Shown piece by piece: positions 1-48,396 of a stretch of 64,000 nucleotides of DNA. The stretch is from Morinoia aosen. Taxonomy: Eukaryota; Arthropoda; Malacostraca; Amphipoda; Talitridae. The DNA is taken from positions 24,971,009 through 25,035,008 of the forward strand of contig CM059578.1 of assembly GCA_030386875.1 (NCBI GenBank). Direction: 5' to 3'. Within the stretch, counting starts at the first letter, position 1; the number at the start of each line of letters is the position of its first letter. A model generated the notes under the pieces. That model saw nothing but the letters and a program-made list of their open reading frames with translations, did not search any database and had not been told where the DNA came from. The position numbers were made by a program, and so were the translations under genes.

Positions 1-3000
1 TTTGAAGTATTTAAATGTAGTGAAGTGTTGAAACAAATGTGTAAATGAATAGTCTTACATAGTTGGAATAGTTGTGGTTTTCATTTAGACATTAGGTAGA
101 CTTGATTGATGTTGAATGAGCATATGTAGGATATGTTTTGCTAGTGACTTGATTTAATTTCATGTTGTCTTTTTCTCTTGGATGTAGAAATGTAAGATTT
201 TTCTCATTATTTTCTAGAAGTTTTGATGAAGTTCTACTAAGCAGACAATTTTGTTAATAAAGCGTTAGAGTATACGTTGTTGATTGAATCCTTCAGCATA
301 AGTATTATCCTTTTTTGTTGTGAATATAGTTTTGGAAAGTTGGATGTGGTTGGGAAATGTTTAATGAGCTCACATCTTGATTCAATAAGTATTGTTCTGT
401 GGAAGATTTATGACTCAAAGGAAATGGAAATGTTGTTGAAGTGTGGTTGAACTTGAGTATTTGGGTAGCATTTCTTTTAGAGAAATGTGCCCGAGCTAAA
501 GGTTAGGTAGGGTTTATTTTTTTGTTGAAACAGAGTATGTTTTTGTTTTGTTACGGACCATATTTTTTCGGTTCACTGCTGTCCTGTTTTTTGTCAGCAC
601 CTACTACTTTCTTCTTCAACTTTGATTTTGATTCATGAAATTCTTCCTCATCTTACTGTTTCTATGGCGTTTCTGCATAGATTCCCCATTCTCTCATCTG
701 CATACTAAATGGTCGCTTCCTCCTTCCTCTCTTGGATACGTTTTTTTGTAGTGGTTAGGGAGGGTAACTTATAATCTTTATAATCTGGAATGTTTTAGAT
801 AAATGTACATGTTGATGGTTGTGTTGTGACTGAACAACTAAACGGCCATATAAATGTAAGTGAATTGATAAAAATTTTTACCTGAAATGGAAAAGATGGT
901 GTGAAAGTGCAGGTTTTGTATAGTAAATGATGTTTTTTGGAAGCTCACGTGTGAGCAAAAAGAGATAATAATTTAGAAATGTTGAAAAGAATAATTGAGG
1001 TAGCGCAGGGTTTTGTGTGTACTACATTTTTTGTAAAATCCCTCTGTGAGACATTGTATTGAAAGAGATTCATGTAGCCAATGCACTTAATTAGCCAGAC
1101 GAGTTGATAATGGAAATTATAAATGATGTTGTATGTATTTACAATGTGTTGGTAATAAAATACACATGTGTAAAGGTGTTGGCATAATTCACTATTCTTT
1201 CAAAACATGAGGGGCTAGAACTTGATGACAAGTAATATCACCTGGTTCTCTTGAAAGATATTTTTTTTGGAGAAAGAAGACTGTGAACAAACATGAATTG
1301 TTTGTGAATAATGTGAAAATATGAATGTATTTGAACCCTGTATTGTATACCCATTTCATTGTTAAATATTGTAAATAAAGGGACTTCTGAAAAGGAAAAT
1401 CGTTTTGTAAAAATGACTGATAGGAATAGGAGATACATTGAGAACAATATTGGGTGTAGGTTGCTGAATCCCAAATGTTCATATGCATGTAAGACTCTGA
1501 ATTGATGGATTCAATATTTTATTTAATGAGAAATAGGTGAAGAAGGATGTCTTGTGTTGAAGACAAATTTAATATGAAGCACGTATGGATGAAAATATTT
1601 GTATGTATGTTGTGGTGTAGATTTTTTTCTACATGAATAGATGCAAGTATGATTGCATTCACTGTAAGTGGGTGGTAGTGAGACTCAATAAATACTTCTT
1701 AAAAAGCAAGGACTTGAATGGAAATTGTCATGAAAGTAGAAGAATGCTTACTAAAAAGTATTGGTTTGTATATCACATGTAGTTCATGATAGCAGTGAGA
1801 CAATTGCATTTTAATTGTTATACTTTGAATTTGAATGGTGGTAAAATAAGGCTGGAATTGGACAGGTACATGGTAGAAATGGTATATACAAGGTACTTAA
1901 GTCATTCTGTCCTGTATATTCCAGAGGAAGAATTTTCAAAGTAATTTTTGGTACAATGTGGTTTGCTTGAGCATTTGTTATTGGGTAATAGTGCAGAAAT
2001 CCGAAAGGTCTCAGATGCTTTGTTTAATTTGTAATGTGACCATATTTGAAAGGTATTTTAGGAATCAGTTCATGTCAAATAGACATGTTATGTCCGAAAT
2101 AATCGCTGCAAGCGACTTGTACTTGAGTGAAGGTTAAATTATGTTTAGAAAATTAGGAGTCAATGCTATATATTGTGTACTAAGTTGTTTAAAAATAGAT
2201 TGGTGTTAGTGAATTGAAAATGCAGTATGTGAATGATGCTGATAAAATTGAGGTGTTGCATGTAGAACTGTCTTACTGCATTGATATTGTGTGTGATATG
2301 CGTGCATTGATTAGAGTAATTAAACATTTTTGTGATGTTTGTATGGGTGGTGAATGTTGAGATGAGGACAATCATTGATTTCCCAATTTTTTGTGCTGGA
2401 ATATAGATCATTAGATCAGAGTAAACAATGTATCCTTTATGAATTTCTGGTCGGAAATGAGTATTTACCGAGTTATAGCCTTAACGAAATGTAATCTTGT
2501 ATGGGCGGTAAATGTGAAGTAGAGGACCTTAATCAATGTTTCAATTTTTGTGCTTGAATATGGGTAATTAGATGAATATAAACAATTTATCTCTCATACA
2601 CTTTTTGTCGCAAATGAGTATATAGTGAGTAATAGGGGTTACGTAATGTAACGTATCAGAAATAATTTAAAGTAAAGTAACATTATGTTATCGCTATAAC
2701 TCGGTAAATATTCATTTGCGACAAAAAGTGCATGGAAGATGAAATGATCATTTTGATCAAATGACCTATATTCAAACAGTAAAACTTGGAAAATGTATTC
2801 TGGTCCTCTCTTTAACATTGGCTGCCGAAACTACATTGCATTACGTTACCGCTGTAACTCGTTAAATACTGATTTGCAACTAGAAGTGGATGGAAGAAAA
2901 ATGGTTTATTTTCATTTAGTTACCTATATTGGAGGACCGAAAAGTTGGAAATCGATCATTGTCATTTCCTGTACAAATACCTATTATTTTAGTTACGTGA

Positions 3001-3470: not shown

Positions 3471-3475
3471 ACAAA
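2440..3475. repeat. Field of ~160-bp monomers with recurrent core, copy I
   Basis: The core CTATAACTCGTTAAATAC followed by TCATTTGCGAC recurs at about 2697, 2851, 3012, 3170 and 3328, a period of about 158 bp. Reverse-complement copies lie at about 2450 and 2610. Each core is followed by AAGTGCAT-like sequence, then an A-rich stretch and a GATCTAATGACCTA-like segment. The monomers are clearly diverged from one another, so this is an old satellite-like array rather than a recent one. The 108-residue open frame at 2793-3119 is only a translation of this repeat. Confidence 0.85.
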
Positions 3476-3478
3476 AAT

Positions 3479-4318
3479 GTTGAATTACTGCTGCTTATTT
3501 GGATTTAGATTGTACATCTAATTTTTTGCACAATATTGCAAAAACATTCTAGGTTCTCATCACAATTAAATTATAAAATTTCATCCCTGTAATAAAACTG
3601 ACAACTGAAACTGAACCCACTACTGAACCGCTATAGCTCGTTAAATACTCATTTGTGACGGTAAGTGCATATAAGGAAAATTGTTGATTTAGTTTTAATA
3701 TGCAATAATGCAGCAGCAGAAATTGGTCAATTCACTATGGTTTTCTCCTTCACAAATGTTGAATTACTGCTGCTTATTTGGATTTAGATTCTACATCTAA
3801 TTTTTTTGCACAATATTGCAAAAACATTGTAGGTTGTCATCACAATTAAATTTTAAAATTTCATCCCTGTAATAGAAATGACAAATGAAACTGAACCCAC
3901 TACTGAACCGCTATAGCTTGTTAAATACTCATATGTGACGGTAAGTGCATATATGGAAAATTGTTGATTTATTTTTAATTTACAAGAATGCAGCAGCAGA
4001 AATTGGTCAATTCACTATGGTTTTCTCCTTCACAAATGTTGAATTACTGCTGCTTATTTGGATTTAGATTGTACATTTAATTTTTTGGCACAATATTGCA
4101 GAAACATTCTAGGTTCTCATCACAATTAAATTCTAAAATTTCAGCCCTGTAATAAAAGTGACAAATGAAACTGAACGCACTACTGAACCGCTATAGCTCG
4201 TTAAATACTCATTTGTGACGGTAAGTGCATATAAGAAAAATTGTTGATTTATTATTAATATACAAAAATGCAGCAGCATCAATTGGTCAATTCACTATGG
4301 TTTTCTCCTTCACATTTA
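3479..4318. repeat. 280-bp satellite, 3 tandem units
   Basis: Units start at GTTGAATTACTGCTG at 3479, 3758 and 4038 (steps of 279-280 bp) and run to CTCCTTCACATTTACC near 4318. Each unit contains the core of the 160-bp monomer (CCGCTATAGCTCGTTAAATA), so the satellite appears derived from that family. The paralogous block at 26741-30657 carries 14 units. Confidence 0.95.
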
Positions 4319-39870: not shown

Positions 39871-42800
39871 ATGGCACGACGACGCAAGTGCTCGAGGTGT
39901 CGTCAAAAAGGCCACAACTCGGTCACTTGTCCATGGAGAGACGTGAACCGAACTGATTTGGCGGAACATGAAGAAACCTGCAATTCTTCTCTGTCGTCGT
40001 TTAGTGAAGAAAAGTCCGTCGAAGCAGTATTAGAAGGGACTTTTGCGTCTCAGTGTTTGAATTCTTCAAGTGTCATTGGCAAAGAAGCTGTGTCTCGTTG
40101 TGTATCGAGGAAACGATCAGAAAAGTGTCAGTTTTGTGAAGACGAAGATCATAAGAAGACAAGTAGTGGATCAATAAATGTTGAAGGAAGGGATACTTTG
40201 AGTCAAATATCAGTTATGTCTTCAACTGTGAGAAGACAAACGTGTTTGAACTGCGGTATTTCAGGACACAACTCTCGTCGTTGTCCGGAACCATTAAGAG
40301 TTGTGGAGCAAGTGAGAAAAAAATCACAATGCAGTAAATGTAAAAGAATTGGTCACAATCGTCGAAGATGTCCGTCTGGTGATTCTATAGAAGGTGGCGA
40401 TGGTGTACCAGTTCCTCTTTCAGAAGATGCTCCGCGTAGTCTTGTTGAAATTCCGTTGGAGGTATTACACCCCGTTGATGACCTTGAAAGTAAATGTTTG
40501 GATGGACATGGACGAATTGAGTGTTCCGGAGCACAAATGAAAGAGGCGATTGAAATGGAGACTGAAGCTGATGAAGCAACTGAAGAAGCTCTCATGCAGG
40601 AGCCCATGCTGGTGTCTGACGAGGGGGGAAAAAGTGCAATGGGTACAGTTGCGGAAGAAAGGATGGAGGATGACGTACAAATTCAAAGAATATTTGTGGG
40701 TACACCTCAACAAATGGAGTGTTCGCAAGGATGCATACAAGAGGCGTTACAAATGGAGACTGAGGGTGATGAACCAACTCAAGAAGCTGTGATTGAGGAA
40801 CCGATGCAGGTTTCTGACGAGGAAGGAGAAAGTGTGATCGGCTCAGTTGCGGAGGAAAGGATGGATGAGAATGTTGATGTTGGAGACGTCGTAGGTGGAA
40901 ATCCGTTGAATTGCGCGTGCTGTCACCGCAAATCCGTAGAGGAGTATCCGATACATTTGCGGGCAGTGCCTCCAAATTTTGTTCGTCGAAGATTTGGAGA
41001 TAGTGTAAGATTGGACGAGAATAGCCTTGTTTGTTGGCAGTGCTGGAACTATTTAAGACCCTGCGTGAATGCAAAGTGGGTTCATGCGTGGCCCGCAGTG
41101 CTTTTTTCATTTTTGACCCAGAGACGGCTTGCTTTGAATGTGAAGAAATTAGTCGAATTTTTGCCTCAAAATGTGCGTGAAATGTATGGCAATGTTGCAC
41201 TGTCACCCCAGATGTGCGGTCAGTGGAACCGAGAGTCTTTGTTTGTTGACATAAGTGGCAAAAGGCGCAAATTTCTTGCAACTCTCGGGGAGTATCGACT
41301 GCACACAACGTTTTTAGAACTTGAGAAGTACCCCGTTCCAACTGTTTTGTGCATGATGGGGTGCACTATTTTTATCGACGCTAAGGTTGGAGGTGAAATG
41401 GCATTGGTTCCAGGGTGCCATTATTTGGCGACGATTTGTTCAGAATTCACTGCTTTTGGGGCTAATAAGTGTTATTTCAGGGGTGCACGACCTGATTGGC
41501 CATATCAGTTCAAGGAACTGAACCGGTGGCTAGTTTGTCCCTCAATTGTCATCGATCGTCAGCAGGGTCTTTGCATCGCTATGTGTGGGTCGTCAGTGCA
41601 CGCAGACGGCCGTTCACAGTACGTGCACGTACCGCGACACCCAATCTTGAAAGAACAGTCGCCTTTAGTGCAGGATATGCTTGCTCCTGTAGTGGCGACT
41701 CCTAACATCATCCGACAAGGACAAACAAGTGAGAAGAATACAAGCTATGCTGTTCTGAAACAAAGAGGTGGCGTCGGCTTAGGGACGTTCACAATAACGC
41801 CTCGTGCGCTTTGTGAAGTGAATAAATGGAGTCCTAAGCTTGTAGGGGCCTATGGGCTCACTGTTCGGAACAGGCCAGAAATCGCCCAAAGTTTTGACGG
41901 TGACAGTAGGTTTGGTGAATTTTTTGTGGAAGATTTGGTGAACGATACCAGCGAGGTATTTGACTATTCTGCCGAAGCCGTGGGTCCCGTCGTTGCGTGT
42001 GGCACCTTCGTAGACATTGGCGACGTGATGCACGCGTATAAATCATTAGAGCATCGAATGGAAGGAGCCGTTCAAGATAATTGGCGTCCTGAGGTAAGGC
42101 GTGAGCGTAGCAATCACCTGGAGTGCCTCCAGTTAGCGCATCGAGCTGATGACAGGGGATTACCCCCTGTGGATGTACCCAAGTTTCGTCGGCGGCAAGA
42201 TGATGTGACGTTTGGCCTTGTGCTGCACCTCACCGTGCAGTGCCTCGTCCATTGTCGTCCTTTGCACCGAGCTCTGTTGGGAGAAATGTGGAGTACAAGG
42301 AATAACGAATTGCATAAAAGTATGAACAAGATAGTGAAAGCGGTGGTGACGGGAAGCCGTGGTGTTGAGTGCTCTCACAGAGCAGGACTCACTGTCGAAC
42401 GTAGTTTGTTAGCAGCTTTGAACGTTCCGCATCCTGTGCCAGCTGAGTTCAACTGTTCATCTGTGGTGGTGCAGGCCTTGCGATACTGTTGCCGAGTTGC
42501 TACTGTATCATTGAACGAAGGTGCGGTCGATGTTTCTGTCGGCCAGCGGGAAGATCCAATCGTAATTGTGGACGCTCACGATAGTCCTGTGGGGCGAGGT
42601 ATTCAAGTTGAAACGGGCAACAATCATTACCTACTTTTGGGAGCTCAGTTATATTTAGAAGAAGATGATTATGTCGTAAATGTGACATATCGCTGGCGAG
42701 AAGGCTTAAAGTGGTACACTCTTGCGGGGGGAAGGACGTCAGCGAGAGAATCGCCTGGACGTGGTCCGTGGCAACTTTTGGTGTACGCGACTCGTTCCGA

Positions 42801-45800
42801 GAACATGTGTTTGCAGAAAGATGAATTCCTAAATTTCAGCGGCGGTCAGAGCAAAATGAGATGTTCCATCCATCCACGGTTTTACCTCATGAAGGAATTC
42901 CCAGGCAATGAGTTGAGATGCAGCCTTGAGGACTGTAATTCTGGCATCCGGTGGAGGTGCTCCTATGGTTATGGGATGATGTACCCTTGCCGTGTGGGGG
43001 TGTGCTTGCCTCATGGAAGACATTTGCTGCAACTGCCGACGAACACTCTGGTGCCGAGACGGCCATTTGAAGATAGGCTTATTAAAAGACGCGTTGCTAG
43101 AGAGGGTGTTGTTGCACGTCGCTGTCATGCCCCTCACATGGACGTGGACACTCGTGGGGATGCGGAAGCTGTGAGTGGTGCTTGTGAAGAGGAGATTGTC
43201 GTCTTCAGAGACATGCTCGTGGACGTCCGCGATTTTGAAGGAGATCTTCCTTTAGTCGCTGAGCCTGTGACACCGTCGTACAATGCGAATTTGGACGGTG
43301 TGTCGTCTCATTTTTTACTAAGAGACGTGTTGAAGTCCTTCCAGAGAGTGTCGTTTGACCGTAAGCCTCCCGTTGTTCTACAGCAGATGCTGCAGCACCT
43401 TCATAGTATTGTCCCCGAAAAGTACTTTCCTCTCTTGTACCCAGAAGGGGCTCTCTTTCCCACGATATTCTACCAGTCCATTGAGGGCGCTGTAGTGGGA
43501 GCAATTCCATCTCCTAGCTATTTTGACCATAGAAACAGAAATCGTGCCGGAGGATTGGCTTCTCTTGAAGACCACATGCAGGTTAGAATGCGAGACAGTC
43601 AAAGCTTGACCTCTCGCGATCCGGACTACCTGGGGTTCAGCTTTGACACCGTGTTGAATAGAACGTTCCGCTTCAACTCGTGCCGTGTTGCAGTAAAGAA
43701 AGGCTTGGAGCACGTCGCACGCCCCAAAGTGCAATGCGAGAATCGAAGGACCGACACAATGACGGATCACATAGACTCTCGTCGGCACGTAAAAAGGTTA
43801 AGTTCCATGGTGCGTGAGGCGCCATGGGACTATTTCCTCACACTAACATTGAATGAGAGCGACACTGTTGGCATACGAGTCATTCGAGAAGCAGCCGAAG
43901 CTATCCACCCTCGAGAAAGTGAAGAATTGAAGGCACTGCTGCAAAACATGTGTGTGTTGATGTGTCGCGTGTGGTCCCGCTGGGTGAAGATATTCTTCGA
44001 GTTGATTGTAAAGAGTCCTGAGCAGCCTCTTGGTCGCGTTCGTTCGTACTGGGCGCGCATGGAGTTTCAAGATAAAGGAGCCATGGGTAACCGTCCGCAC
44101 GTTCATGCAGGTATAACCTTGGAGCCGGGATCTGATAAGGAAGAGAACCTTGCAAGGATCGTAAACAATGATAATATGCTGTTTTGCCGGGATTTTGGGA
44201 CCGATGAAGAAACCTTGAAGAAGAAAGGATTGGTGAAGGACCACGAAGAAATGTTAAAGCTCTGGCATCTGGGGTATACTTTGACAAAACACGATTGCGC
44301 GAAGAGCAAATTCCGCTGTCAAAAACGCTCGGCCGATGGGTCAATGGCATGTCGGGTTCCACGTCATCCGGCAAGTTTTGGGTGCTCATTCAAAGAAGGT
44401 CCAACCAACAAATTGTACGACCATGACGCTAGAGAGCGCCTCCACGATGTAGGCCTTGCCTATCGTGACACATATGGTGACCTGCAGGTGGAAGATGCCC
44501 TGGTTGGAGGGCGCTGGCAGTATCCAAGTGTTCCGAATGTGAGCGCTGTTCCAGTAGTGCCCCAGTTGTTTGTGATTTGTCGTTCAGTGATAAATGTTCA
44601 ATTGTGTGACCGTCGCATGACGACTTCGTACATGTGTAAGTACGTCAGTGGTGTTGACGAAAAGCGGGACGTAGTTTTGACTGTGAAAGATGACGCTCCT
44701 AACGTGTTGAACGTCGAAGCTAGGCCACTCTACAATGCGAAGATAACTGGCACTGCAAAAGCTGAGCAGCGCCTCCGTGCCGATGCCCCCGAACCTCTGG
44801 CCAGAGAACTGTCCCTGTCCGAAATGTGTTGGTTCAACCTTGATCTGCCTTACATTATGACAAATGTTGAATTCGTGGAAGTACCCACAGAAGCACCGGA
44901 GTATCGTCGTGCAGTGCACAAGATTTCGCGCCAATTATCCAGGAAGTTGGTGGCTGAGGATGGTTCGCTCAAGTGCGTCAATGTTCGTGTTGGATTGCCC
45001 GCTTGGCGGCAGTGGAGTCGACACCAGGAGATAATGATGAGGGATTGCATGGAATCCATGTATCATGCGGACCGAACAACCTCGTTTAGCTTCCGGCCTC
45101 CTGAGTTGAAATCGGTGAGGCGCTTGGAAGCATATTTCAAGTGGTTTGTGTTCGACACTTGTAAAGGGTTTGTTGCTTCCGAGAATTTGAGCGAGCACCC
45201 ATTGATTGATGCATGTTGCAGACGGGTCCGAATCAGGATTCGTTATTTGGAGTGTGTAAAGGAGCATTTTGAAGGGCTGGGCAATGAATGGCGAGAGTCG
45301 TCTGCGGCCATGCTGGCGGTCATTCGACGTTTGGAAACCGAAGTGAACGCCGAGCGCTTCTCTGATCACTTTCTGCGCTTCGTTTCTCCTGAGCATCGTA
45401 AGGAGTGTATAGTCGTGTTCTCGCCCATCAGTCCCGACCGATTTGACCGATTTCTAGTCCATTTGATTTTGACACTTGGATGGTTCAACACCGAGCTTGA
45501 GGTGTATTCTTGCCGCACCGTGTTGCACGCTCTGCAGCACGTTGGACTGATAAAGGATGCCCTGAACCCCAACCAAGAGGATGCTGTTCGTTTGGCCAAG
45601 AAGTTCGTGAAGGGCCAGCTTCTCTACTACTCTATATCGGCGAGGGAGTTCAATCGGCTGGTTGCTGTGTGTTTGGACAAGTTGCGAGCGTTGATGGCGC
45701 AACGGATCGTGCCATTTGAGTCGATGCCACTAGCAACGTATCGTAGCATCAATGAGCAAGCGCAAGGTAAATTGCTCGCTGCTGAGAACAATATGAGGAG

Positions 45801-48396
45801 GAACTTGGTGGACAGTCTTCTCGACAAAGGTTTGCCTACTTTACCAATCTTGAACGATTTGCGCGCTGGAAAACCTGTTCGTTACGACCCTAAGCTGACG
45901 CGCGTGCCGAATCAGAGTGTGGAATCGTTCGAGGAGCAAGTGAGCGCACTGAACCATTTGCGAGCTGCTGTAGACTCCTTCGTCACTCCTAATGACACAT
46001 TTGTGCGTTTCCCCTTGTTGTTGGGGCCTCCTGGCGCTGGCAAAACACACGTCTTGTTGACGGCCTGTGCCTATTCATTGTCCAAAGCTCTGAGGACAAT
46101 GCTTGTTGCCGTAACATCTGAGCGAGCTCGTGCTTTGGGTGGTGAGCATGTTCATTTGTTGTTTTGCATACCTGTAACACACTGTCGTTTGGAGACGCCC
46201 AACATCACAGCAAACAAATGCATGCTCAATCTCGCTCGTAATCCTGTGCGAATGGCGTTTTTGAAACGGTTGGACGTGTTGATCTTTGAAGAAATCGGTT
46301 TGCTGCCGCTCAATTTGTTCGTCGTGATGGATATTGTTCTTCGACACGTTCGTGGCAATCCAGTGCCTTTCGGTGGGATTCTTCTGATCGCATCTGGTGA
46401 TCCGCGTCAGTTGCCTCCTGTGGAAGGTAGCGGCATTTGGTTGTCAGCTCAAATGATGACGGTGTTCACCGTACTGTATTTGCGACATTACGTTCGCAGT
46501 CGGCGCGACCTTCAATTGCAACGAATAATTTTTCTGATGCGCAAGTGTGAACTAAACGAACAAGAAGTGGGCTCTGTTTTGAATGTTCTGGCTGAACAAC
46601 AATTTGTGAACTCCTGGGACGACGTTCCCGATGGTGTGCTAAGAGTTGTTAGCAAAAAGATAGCAGAGAGGGAGGCAGTCAGTCGATTCTTGCATAAGAA
46701 GCGTATGATCCCCGGCCTTGTACTAGAAACGTTCGAGTCAATTGACACGGTGGAAGGTGTAGGCACAAATTGGCGTAATGCCGATTCGCGCGTCTCCAGA
46801 CATCTTGACTATCAGCTGGCTGAGAGTAGAGAACTTGTGCTGTTCTGCGGTGCTGTGATGCGTGTCACCTTCAATAACGTGAATCCTTCTCGAAACATGC
46901 CGAGGTTTTCGCAGGGGCAGCTGGTGGTCATAACTCGATTGCCAGATCGTGCTTTGCCACGAAATCAACAGCGCGTTGAAGCTCGACTTGTGCCACCAGG
47001 TCAACGCGTCGTAGACGTGGTCAATTTACCGGATGCATGGCAGCACGTCTCCCTGAGCCAACACACTACTAACCCGGTGGTCGTAGGAGGTAGCATGACA
47101 AGAGCAAAGCGTCTGCAGTGGCCCTTGCGACATTATGTGTGCTCGACAATCCACAAGGTACTGGGAGATACAGTTCCTCGTTTGGCGACGCAAATCAGTG
47201 CAAGAGACAAGAAGTATTCACTGTGGCAGAGAGAGCAGCTGCTCACCGTGCTGTCCCGTGTCGAAGAACTGCGTTGCATTACATTTGTGGGCTGCAAGGA
47301 GGACACTCTGTTGGCTGTGAGTGAGTTACTGCAGGTCAATGATGCACGGGCTGGCCACGCCGAACACCTGCTCAGTCAATTTGACGTCTTGCGCGAATCG
47401 CCACGAGTCACTCGAAGTGACGCAACTTTCTCCAATCCTGTTGCGTGCGAAGTCCCTTCTTTGGATGGTGGATTTGTGTACATTTTCGTCAGTATCAAGT
47501 TTCCGAAGATGTTTAAATTTGGGAACTGTTGTTCCATAAGAAAGGAGCTCTATTTGATGAACAGCTCTATTTGCCAACCCAATCTGCGTGCTGGAATGCC
47601 GTGGGTTGCGCTAGCCTTTGTCACTGGCTTCAGCGGTTCCGGAAATGATGAAGTCAATGAACAGGAAAGGCAAAGATTCGAGGGCGCCGTGTACACTCGA
47701 GCATGTAATAGAGTGGTGACAACTAAGACACGCCTCGTAGACCTCGTTAAGGAACACGAGCGCTGGATCAGAAGGGGTCACTCCTCACTCGTCTTGAGGC
47801 AGTGTTGCGATTTTGTTCGTCGTACTGATGAAGTTAATGCCGCCGTTGATGCTAATCTTGGATGTGAGAGTCCCGCTGATGTTGCACCTAGTTCTGGCGA
47901 TGTGACGACTCCCGCACCTACAACCTTGTTTGAGGGAAACGTTCAAGATGAGAATGTTTATATTGAGGGAGTGGTGAGAGTTGCTGTTCCCAAGGAGAGG
48001 CCAGCTCGAATGGCAGATGAGGACACGTGTTGCTCGGTTACAAATGATCACTTGATGGATGGTGTTGCACAGTTATTGCAAACGACGGAGGAGGAACATC
48101 TTCAAATCGCTATTGAGCGCTCTCTCGACGTACGAAAGCGACTCGAACACCACGAATTTTCCGTTGAAGAATTGAGAGCCAGAGTATCAAGAGGAAGCGT
48201 AGCTGGGTCAAGTGGAGCGTGCATATCGAAGAAGCGGCCTCATGGAGAACATCATGATTATCGTCAGGGACGACGTATGCGTTCGAGAATTGGCCTTGAG
48301 ACTGGAGAAGAGACCGTGTCTCCGGCAGAGAGATTGACTTCTTTGAAAGGGAAAATGTCAAAGTCGACACCAAGGAAGAGAGTGAAGCACAAGTAA
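39871..48396 (+). CDS. Helitron-type Rep/helicase with zinc knuckles, UIM and GIY-YIG-like segment (2841 aa)
   Basis: Single intronless frame encoding the replication protein of a rolling-circle (Helitron-like) transposon. It starts at the ATG behind a TATA box. Seen in order: CCHC knuckles at C7-C20, C125-C138 and C154-C167 (CX2CX4HX4C), and an incomplete one at C86; an acidic ~66-residue internal repeat (about 215-343); a CACC..CWQC cysteine cluster (348-391); the Rep motifs WDYFLTLT (1319), HVH (1410-1412) and YMCKY (1587-1591). The Pif1-like helicase follows with GPPGAGKT (2052-2059), FEEIG (E2140-E2141, in place of the usual DE), GDPRQLPPV (2176) and STIHKVLGDT (about 2426). After it come a GIY-YIG-like segment (2533-2604) and a UIM, EEEHLQIAIERSLD (2740-2753). 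By family knowledge, the HUH and tyrosines nick and join single strands and the helicase unwinds DNA. Roles of the end domains are inference. Codons are more GC-rich than the flanks. Transposon ends were not found. Confidence 0.93.
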   Translation: MARRRKCSRCRQKGHNSVTCPWRDVNRTDLAEHEETCNSSLSSFSEEKSVEAVLEGTFASQCLNSSSVIGKEAVSRCVSRKRSEKCQFCEDEDHKKTSSGSINVEGRDTLSQISVMSSTVRRQTCLNCGISGHNSRRCPEPLRVVEQVRKKSQCSKCKRIGHNRRRCPSGDSIEGGDGVPVPLSEDAPRSLVEIPLEVLHPVDDLESKCLDGHGRIECSGAQMKEAIEMETEADEATEEALMQEPMLVSDEGGKSAMGTVAEERMEDDVQIQRIFVGTPQQMECSQGCIQEALQMETEGDEPTQEAVIEEPMQVSDEEGESVIGSVAEERMDENVDVGDVVGGNPLNCACCHRKSVEEYPIHLRAVPPNFVRRRFGDSVRLDENSLVCWQCWNYLRPCVNAKWVHAWPAVLFSFLTQRRLALNVKKLVEFLPQNVREMYGNVALSPQMCGQWNRESLFVDISGKRRKFLATLGEYRLHTTFLELEKYPVPTVLCMMGCTIFIDAKVGGEMALVPGCHYLATICSEFTAFGANKCYFRGARPDWPYQFKELNRWLVCPSIVIDRQQGLCIAMCGSSVHADGRSQYVHVPRHPILKEQSPLVQDMLAPVVATPNIIRQGQTSEKNTSYAVLKQRGGVGLGTFTITPRALCEVNKWSPKLVGAYGLTVRNRPEIAQSFDGDSRFGEFFVEDLVNDTSEVFDYSAEAVGPVVACGTFVDIGDVMHAYKSLEHRMEGAVQDNWRPEVRRERSNHLECLQLAHRADDRGLPPVDVPKFRRRQDDVTFGLVLHLTVQCLVHCRPLHRALLGEMWSTRNNELHKSMNKIVKAVVTGSRGVECSHRAGLTVERSLLAALNVPHPVPAEFNCSSVVVQALRYCCRVATVSLNEGAVDVSVGQREDPIVIVDAHDSPVGRGIQVETGNNHYLLLGAQLYLEEDDYVVNVTYRWREGLKWYTLAGGRTSARESPGRGPWQLLVYATRSENMCLQKDEFLNFSGGQSKMRCSIHPRFYLMKEFPGNELRCSLEDCNSGIRWRCSYGYGMMYPCRVGVCLPHGRHLLQLPTNTLVPRRPFEDRLIKRRVAREGVVARRCHAPHMDVDTRGDAEAVSGACEEEIVVFRDMLVDVRDFEGDLPLVAEPVTPSYNANLDGVSSHFLLRDVLKSFQRVSFDRKPPVVLQQMLQHLHSIVPEKYFPLLYPEGALFPTIFYQSIEGAVVGAIPSPSYFDHRNRNRAGGLASLEDHMQVRMRDSQSLTSRDPDYLGFSFDTVLNRTFRFNSCRVAVKKGLEHVARPKVQCENRRTDTMTDHIDSRRHVKRLSSMVREAPWDYFLTLTLNESDTVGIRVIREAAEAIHPRESEELKALLQNMCVLMCRVWSRWVKIFFELIVKSPEQPLGRVRSYWARMEFQDKGAMGNRPHVHAGITLEPGSDKEENLARIVNNDNMLFCRDFGTDEETLKKKGLVKDHEEMLKLWHLGYTLTKHDCAKSKFRCQKRSADGSMACRVPRHPASFGCSFKEGPTNKLYDHDARERLHDVGLAYRDTYGDLQVEDALVGGRWQYPSVPNVSAVPVVPQLFVICRSVINVQLCDRRMTTSYMCKYVSGVDEKRDVVLTVKDDAPNVLNVEARPLYNAKITGTAKAEQRLRADAPEPLARELSLSEMCWFNLDLPYIMTNVEFVEVPTEAPEYRRAVHKISRQLSRKLVAEDGSLKCVNVRVGLPAWRQWSRHQEIMMRDCMESMYHADRTTSFSFRPPELKSVRRLEAYFKWFVFDTCKGFVASENLSEHPLIDACCRRVRIRIRYLECVKEHFEGLGNEWRESSAAMLAVIRRLETEVNAERFSDHFLRFVSPEHRKECIVVFSPISPDRFDRFLVHLILTLGWFNTELEVYSCRTVLHALQHVGLIKDALNPNQEDAVRLAKKFVKGQLLYYSISAREFNRLVAVCLDKLRALMAQRIVPFESMPLATYRSINEQAQGKLLAAENNMRRNLVDSLLDKGLPTLPILNDLRAGKPVRYDPKLTRVPNQSVESFEEQVSALNHLRAAVDSFVTPNDTFVRFPLLLGPPGAGKTHVLLTACAYSLSKALRTMLVAVTSERARALGGEHVHLLFCIPVTHCRLETPNITANKCMLNLARNPVRMAFLKRLDVLIFEEIGLLPLNLFVVMDIVLRHVRGNPVPFGGILLIASGDPRQLPPVEGSGIWLSAQMMTVFTVLYLRHYVRSRRDLQLQRIIFLMRKCELNEQEVGSVLNVLAEQQFVNSWDDVPDGVLRVVSKKIAEREAVSRFLHKKRMIPGLVLETFESIDTVEGVGTNWRNADSRVSRHLDYQLAESRELVLFCGAVMRVTFNNVNPSRNMPRFSQGQLVVITRLPDRALPRNQQRVEARLVPPGQRVVDVVNLPDAWQHVSLSQHTTNPVVVGGSMTRAKRLQWPLRHYVCSTIHKVLGDTVPRLATQISARDKKYSLWQREQLLTVLSRVEELRCITFVGCKEDTLLAVSELLQVNDARAGHAEHLLSQFDVLRESPRVTRSDATFSNPVACEVPSLDGGFVYIFVSIKFPKMFKFGNCCSIRKELYLMNSSICQPNLRAGMPWVALAFVTGFSGSGNDEVNEQERQRFEGAVYTRACNRVVTTKTRLVDLVKEHERWIRRGHSSLVLRQCCDFVRRTDEVNAAVDANLGCESPADVAPSSGDVTTPAPTTLFEGNVQDENVYIEGVVRVAVPKERPARMADEDTCCSVTNDHLMDGVAQLLQTTEEEHLQIAIERSLDVRKRLEHHEFSVEELRARVSRGSVAGSSGACISKKRPHGEHHDYRQGRRMRSRIGLETGEETVSPAERLTSLKGKMSKSTPRKRVKHK

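Follow-up and report, generated by a model that had tools for sequence, protein, structure and literature searches.

What does a Helitron-type transposase carry behind its helicase, and could that part be a second nuclease? This question is raised by a stretch of 64,000 nucleotides from the amphipod Morinoia aosen (assembly GCA_030386875.1, 1.99 Gb in 29 contigs; contig CM059578.1, here C23:24971009-25035008), which we analysed as a whole and refer to as the window. On its forward strand, at window positions 39871-48396, lies an open reading frame (ORF) whose 2841-residue product is a Helitron-type Rep/helicase with a C-terminal extension, the tail. A sequence-only reading had seen in the tail a GIY-YIG-like nuclease segment (47467-47685). 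Our analysis shows the tail to be a genuine domain that accompanies the Helitron protein and is kept by selection. That its likeness to GIY-YIG proteins exceeds chance is only moderately supported by the profile comparisons, and the best single explanation, which we hold tentatively, views the tail as a T5orf172-type GIY-YIG relative that has diverged strongly. To our knowledge, it is unsettled how Helitrons open the target site and handle the second strand. The tail, conserved behind the helicase and under selection in several of this genome's subfamilies, offers a concrete candidate for this step.

A selected domain behind the Helitron helicase

The ORF is single and intact, with no internal stop, and Pfam finds both Helitron_like_N and PIF1 in it, which bears out the assignment to Helitron-type Rep/helicases made from the letters alone. 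The Rep part, Helitron_like_N (residues 1304-1412, window 43780-44106), has an E value of 1.6e-6 and scores 28.9 bits, exactly at the Pfam cut-off of 28.9, which identifies a Helitron Rep of the HUH type. It ends in H-V-H (residues 1410-1412), which we take to be the HUH motif, and a two-tyrosine motif further on, Y-M-C-K-Y (residues 1587-1591, 44629-44643), is the one that we assign as the candidate Y2 motif. In the same protein, a PIF1-like superfamily 1 helicase core with GPPGAGKT and GDPRQLPP (residues 2050-2188, 46018-46434) is matched by PF05970 at 44.2 bits against a cut-off of 25.9 (E 2.2e-11). The last helicase motif, LSRVEELRCITFVG, stops by reading of the sequence near residue 2474, and the segment in question does lie after it, as had been claimed. 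Sequence matches of the ORF in the PDB are mostly PIF1-type helicases; they also include two nucleocapsid matches (E 0.4-0.8) and the canonical animal Helitron Helraiser (PDB 7lcc), the last as a weak phmmer match in the helicase only (E 0.1). Like Helraiser, the protein combines Helitron_like_N with a PIF1-type helicase, but it is longer and has zinc-knuckle-like stretches and a conserved post-helicase domain. Neither the apurinic/apyrimidinic (AP) endonuclease by which a Helentron would be recognised nor an OTU family is among its ten Pfam matches (E up to 10).

The tail recurs with the helicase across the genome. Searches of the same genome returned 44 matches to the tail and 94 to the helicase, the latter among 95 scored of 143 candidates. 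Within this scored set, all 31 helicase matches with a query coverage of 99% or more are directly followed by a tail match, which is split into two pieces at C4:70047986 and C10:30033111. Short broken helicase fragments (e.g. C3:6561308, C16:59314769 and C18:19548711) have no tail match among the matches listed. Open frames of 2,807-3,416 residues hold at least a dozen copies. For the conservation counts given below, 17 rows were aligned, all from this genome and 15 of them distinct, and the tail alignments A1, A2 and A5 comprise 15, 16 and 17 rows, respectively. The decayed copies L042-L051 were set aside and left uncounted because they carry stops and frameshifts, and row L018 was removed for a stop.

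Selection was assessed by the ratio of nonsynonymous to synonymous substitution rates (dN/dS) on 12 pairs. The N-terminal part of the tail (residues 2531-2566, 47461-47568), which contains GGFVYIF, FKFG and SIR, has a dN/dS of 0.05-0.13 in six pairs; a seventh gives 0, an eighth is without any change, and in the remaining four the synonymous sites are saturated. For the helicase the ratio is 0.06-0.23, so this part evolves about as slowly as the enzyme that precedes it. The C-terminal part of the tail (residues 2567-2660, 47569-47850) is under looser selection, with 0.27-0.39 in four pairs and values above 1 in three others, all very close, and the fast-evolving region beyond it (residues 2661-2841, 47851-48393) reaches 0.25-1.3 over its last 180 residues in pairs with more than nine aligned codons. 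Because dN/dS is lowest at residues 2531-2566, the tail is most constrained in just the stretch that the sequence-only reading singled out. Purifying selection thus acts on the N-terminal part of the tail.

Resemblance of the tail to GIY-YIG and T5orf172 proteins

The motifs of the proposed segment all stand within the ORF where they had been placed. GGFVYIFVS begins at residue 2533 (nucleotide 47467) and MFKFGN occupies residues 2547-2552 (from nucleotide 47509), while SIRKEL begins at residue 2555, which makes its arginine R2557, and RFEG occupies residues 2602-2605, which makes its glutamate E2604. G2534, F2535, Y2537, G2551 and R2557 (47539-47541) are invariant in all 17 rows, and K2549 is lysine in 12 and arginine in 5. 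Between FVY (2535-2537) and KFG (2549-2551) lie 11 residues, within the range of about 10-11 for the GIY tyrosine and [Y/K]-x-G and the usual distance from GIY to YIG. The fit had been called loose for its F-G in place of Y-I-G, and here the T5orf172 proteins offer a closer parallel, as their K-I-G or K-V-G corresponds to the K-F-G of the tail. The tail shares with T5orf172 and MUG113 (PF10544 and PF13455) the V-Y hairpin and a K-x-G at equal spacing, with lysine replacing the YIG tyrosine. These two families are handled as highly related profiles in one study (PMC10448857).

Weak matches in two libraries point in the same direction. In PHROGs, phrog_5032 matches 10 of the 17 tail members (best E 0.004) and phrog_18781 matches 5 (best E 0.15); of five genuine T5orf172/GIY-YIG sequences used as a control, the former matches four (5e-11, 3.7e-8, 1.7e-8 and 7.3e-6) and the latter two (0.0012 and 0.13). 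Three further PHROGs families match tail members, one of them at E 0.0077. The sole PADLOC model matched, PDLC05043, finds 10 of the 17 members (best E 0.012) and 4 of 10 T5orf172/GIY-YIG control sequences (1.6e-8, 2e-5, 3.8e-4 and 0.0048, the last being a GIY-YIG protein). Matches from both libraries begin at the GIY-like strand with Y2537 opposite the GIY tyrosine, and the register given by HMMER and hhalign likewise sets Y2537 with that tyrosine and G2551 with the KIG glycine. Ten other 116-residue pieces, taken from elsewhere in the protein, had no match in PADLOC and two in PHROGs (E 0.16 and 0.21), a control that is milder than the test because each piece was a single sequence whereas the tail was represented by 17 relatives. 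A hidden Markov model (HMM) of the tail made from A5 scored two of 38 T5orf172 sequences at 11.1 and 7.2 bits, and none of 3,800 shuffles or 586 decoy ORFs reached 7 bits (best decoy 6.0); with the A2 model two shuffles reached 7 bits and none 11.

Other results weigh against a GIY-YIG origin. Pfam reports no GIY-YIG family on the whole ORF or on the tail, and PF01541, the profile proposed as the check, matched no member scanned, nor did PF10544 or PF13455 (none of 15 members and none of five core sequences for all three). The NCBIfam scan of the 17 members likewise matched no GIY-YIG model; its best match was the unrelated MamQ (5 of 17 members, E 0.0022), so that E values of 0.004-0.012 lie near scan noise. 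By the A5 model, 36 of the 38 T5orf172 sequences and all eight GIY-YIG sequences stay at or below the best decoy. Profile-profile comparison of the 38 T5orf172 sequences with the tail gave a probability of 8%, which is suggestive at most; among 300 shuffles of each kind, 4 by column and 9 by block scored as high. The first 48 tail columns alone gave 22% and the C-terminal part alone 0.1-0.6%, while the positive control, this diverse T5orf172 set against classical GIY-YIG, gave 70%. The diverse set had been brought in because the positive control of a narrower one failed, at just 0.6%; comparisons of the tail with the narrower set and with eight GIY-YIG proteins yielded no match. Past the first 34 or so residues, only hhalign carries the likeness further, faintly, as far as residue 2587. 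Outside this genome, the search covered viral and prokaryote collections, whose 5 and 78 pattern matches include no confirmed relative of the tail. A tblastn search of phages with the tail returned five weak matches (E 6-9), of which the one inspected is without the K-x-G motif. The sole PDB sequence match to the tail profile was a calcium pump (E 0.65).

The structure predictions proposed as a further check do not help the GIY-YIG case. AlphaFold2 gave an all-helical, low-confidence model from 15 rows of 198 residues (predicted local distance difference test, pLDDT, 35.3) and another all-helical model, GGFVYIF included, from 17 rows of the 116-residue core with the relative L022 as first row (pLDDT 53.2); a Foldseek search of the second model against the PDB found nothing with E below 7 and no GIY-YIG fold. 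Both models come from shallow alignments and are too poor to decide the fold. Family-averaged Chou-Fasman propensities, a weak method, suggest strand, weak strand, helix, strand and helix.

These results leave room for an accessory domain peculiar to Helitrons, with a different and perhaps new fold, that would bind DNA or protein as an appendage to the helicase and whose GGFVYIF...FKFG likeness arose by chance. Such a domain would account for the silence of Pfam and NCBIfam on GIY-YIG, for an unrelated NCBIfam match of equal strength, for a likeness mostly confined to about 34 residues and for the all-helical, if low-confidence, models, as well as for an arginine off register and candidate glutamates that vary (see below). 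It fits less well with weak matches in two libraries that converge on one superfamily in register, with clean controls within the protein and with a tail HMM that ranks two T5orf172 proteins above every decoy. We consider it a serious possibility that falls somewhat short of being probable. The claim of a GIY-YIG-like segment therefore stands in part: the PHROGs, PADLOC and HMM matches over about residues 2533-2566 follow the register first proposed, but curated GIY-YIG models of Pfam and NCBIfam do not recognise it. A strongly diverged T5orf172-type GIY-YIG relative remains our preferred explanation, plausible rather than secure and placed only slightly ahead of chance resemblance.

Candidate catalytic residues and possible roles

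In ten T5orf172 sequences the invariant residues are K-I-G, an arginine that in the first row lies eight residues after its glycine (G+8), and a glutamate that is followed four residues later by a histidine and further on by another glutamate. The tail keeps K/R-x-G, but its invariant arginine, R2557, stands at G+6, two residues ahead of the T5orf172 position. HMMER and hhalign both set E2559 (47545-47547), which is glutamate in 11 rows and alanine in 6, against the T5orf172 arginine, and R2557 was rejected as the direct counterpart because E2559 takes that place. No arginine stands at G+8 in the first helix, and R2557 could be a shifted substitute at most. The candidate glutamates are not universal either. 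E2604 (47680-47682), the one first proposed, is glutamate in just 7 of 17 rows and was rejected as the catalytic residue for that reason. E2599 (47665-47667) is a better candidate, being glutamate in 15 rows and glutamine in two (L024 and L025); like the T5orf172 glutamate, it stands four residues ahead of an aromatic residue or histidine, in a region outside the reach of every profile alignment. An invariant acidic residue, D2593 (47647-47649), precedes the second predicted helix. The tail further differs from T5orf172 and MUG113 in having no E-x-x-x-H...E-[WF]-F block and about 15 extra residues from the arginine to the candidate glutamate. Of the order GIY, YIG, R, E claimed at the outset, the FVY-KFG spacing holds, whereas the arginine and glutamate do not; R2557 is conserved as expected but out of register, E2604 is neither conserved nor a likely ligand, and the pair are not the right nuclease residues. 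With the arginine off register and every candidate glutamate lost in some rows, canonical metal-dependent cleavage is unlikely. The curated models do not match the tail and its arginine is not at the required position, and for these reasons we do not class it as a GIY-YIG nuclease.

The least probable reading is that the tail is an active nuclease of GIY-YIG type whose site has been rearranged to K2549/R2557 together with E2599 or D2593, serving for example target cleavage. It would be in keeping with the invariance of Y2537, G2551, R2557 and D2593, with E2599 in 15 of 17 rows and with the tight constraint on residues 2531-2566. A precedent for a departure from the usual site is Odn (Gp88) of phage ICP1, a T5orf172 protein that is without the usual helix-1 His/Tyr and cuts DNA, while its mutant E180A does not (PMC8263062). 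It is made improbable by the poor conservation of E2604, by glutamine in place of E2599 in two copies, by the displacement of R2557 from G+8 with E2559 aligned there instead, and by the absence of GIY-YIG likeness in the half of the tail that would bear the glutamate. The second DNA-cutting activity proposed for the element is thus possible but doubtful, and we think it unlikely that this is a transposase with two unrelated cutting centres, an HUH centre for its own strand and a rearranged GIY-YIG-derived one for the target or second strand.

On our preferred explanation, a diverged T5orf172-type relative, the proposed segment would open an accessory domain of about residues 2525-2660, conserved and joined to the protein behind the Helitron helicase. 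A beta-hairpin bearing V-Y-I-F and F-K-F-G would be followed by a helix, the remainder having been altered and the canonical arginine lost. From its place behind the helicase, the domain may touch target DNA or the end of the element, and it could help in target or second-strand processing, as has been proposed for the AP-endonuclease tail of Helentrons. That AP endonuclease, likewise C-terminal in the Helentron protein, is the closest functional precedent for the tail (PMC4067079). Helentrons have Rep and a PIF1-type helicase in one protein, as the ORF does, and their C-terminal AP endonuclease is likewise an extra module at a nuclease-capture site. If the tail is GIY-YIG-derived, it would represent a second nuclease-type capture at this protein position. 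GIY-YIG or GIY-YIG-like modules are also found in other eukaryotic mobile elements, the Penelope-like elements and the rotifer Terminons, and Terminons may carry Rep proteins too; unlike the ORF, these are retroelements, and the available portions of their sources do not describe GIY-YIG fused to a Helitron Rep/helicase (PMC6431247, PMC5718144). A search of openly available full-text papers, judged by titles, abstract openings and some passages and with subscription journals mostly outside its reach, likewise showed no description of a Helitron with a GIY-YIG or T5orf172 fusion.

Other features of the ORF and its genomic surroundings

The ORF has three zinc-knuckle-like stretches matched by zf-CCHC_6 at E 0.005, under the Pfam cut-off; the best-scoring of them covers residues 4-27 (39880-39951). 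In the fast-evolving C-terminal region, EEEHLQIAIERSL (residues 2740-2752, window 48088-48126), whose form is retained in the relatives L016 and L019, resembles a ubiquitin-interacting motif; Pfam reports none at these residues.

The ORF and its flanks (36.8-40, 48-52 and 62-63.9 kb were tested) have further copies on contigs C4, C6, C26 and C27, three with 97-100% identity and a fourth with 87-96%. Because the flanks recur along with the ORF, the repeated unit must be much larger than the ORF itself. Of 1,100 candidates for copies of window positions 1000-2500, 40 places were scored, all with 98-100% identity, and many of these cluster within about a megabase on C4, C6, C21, C23, C24 and C27; that these repeats form a centromere-like array is a guess. 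A 280-bp tandem array of 14 copies lies at 26-30 kb, with three more units at 3475-4314, and GC skew is about +0.09 to +0.41 in all 4-kb intervals of the window except 26-30 kb (-0.07).

Several related elements (L029-L038 and others) are faced by a second Rep/helicase copy, and in five facing pairs on C21 and C22 a 1028-residue open frame is present with the tails about 1.5 kb apart. Six stop-ridden helicase relics lie about 6-8 kb from related elements (C23 at 35.42, 35.66 and 38.60 Mb; C4 at 50.22 Mb; C8 at 68.77 Mb; C20 at 9.45 Mb), and a tail relic accompanies three of the six. No facing Rep/helicase relic was found within the window.

The assembly also contains bacterial-looking sequence, on C27 (57-73 Mb) and at C26:21572916. 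This part includes three frames of about 600 residues with GIY-YIG, which we presume to be UvrC-like, and a T5orf172 gene whose T5orf172 domain is 100% identical to that of Chryseobacterium.

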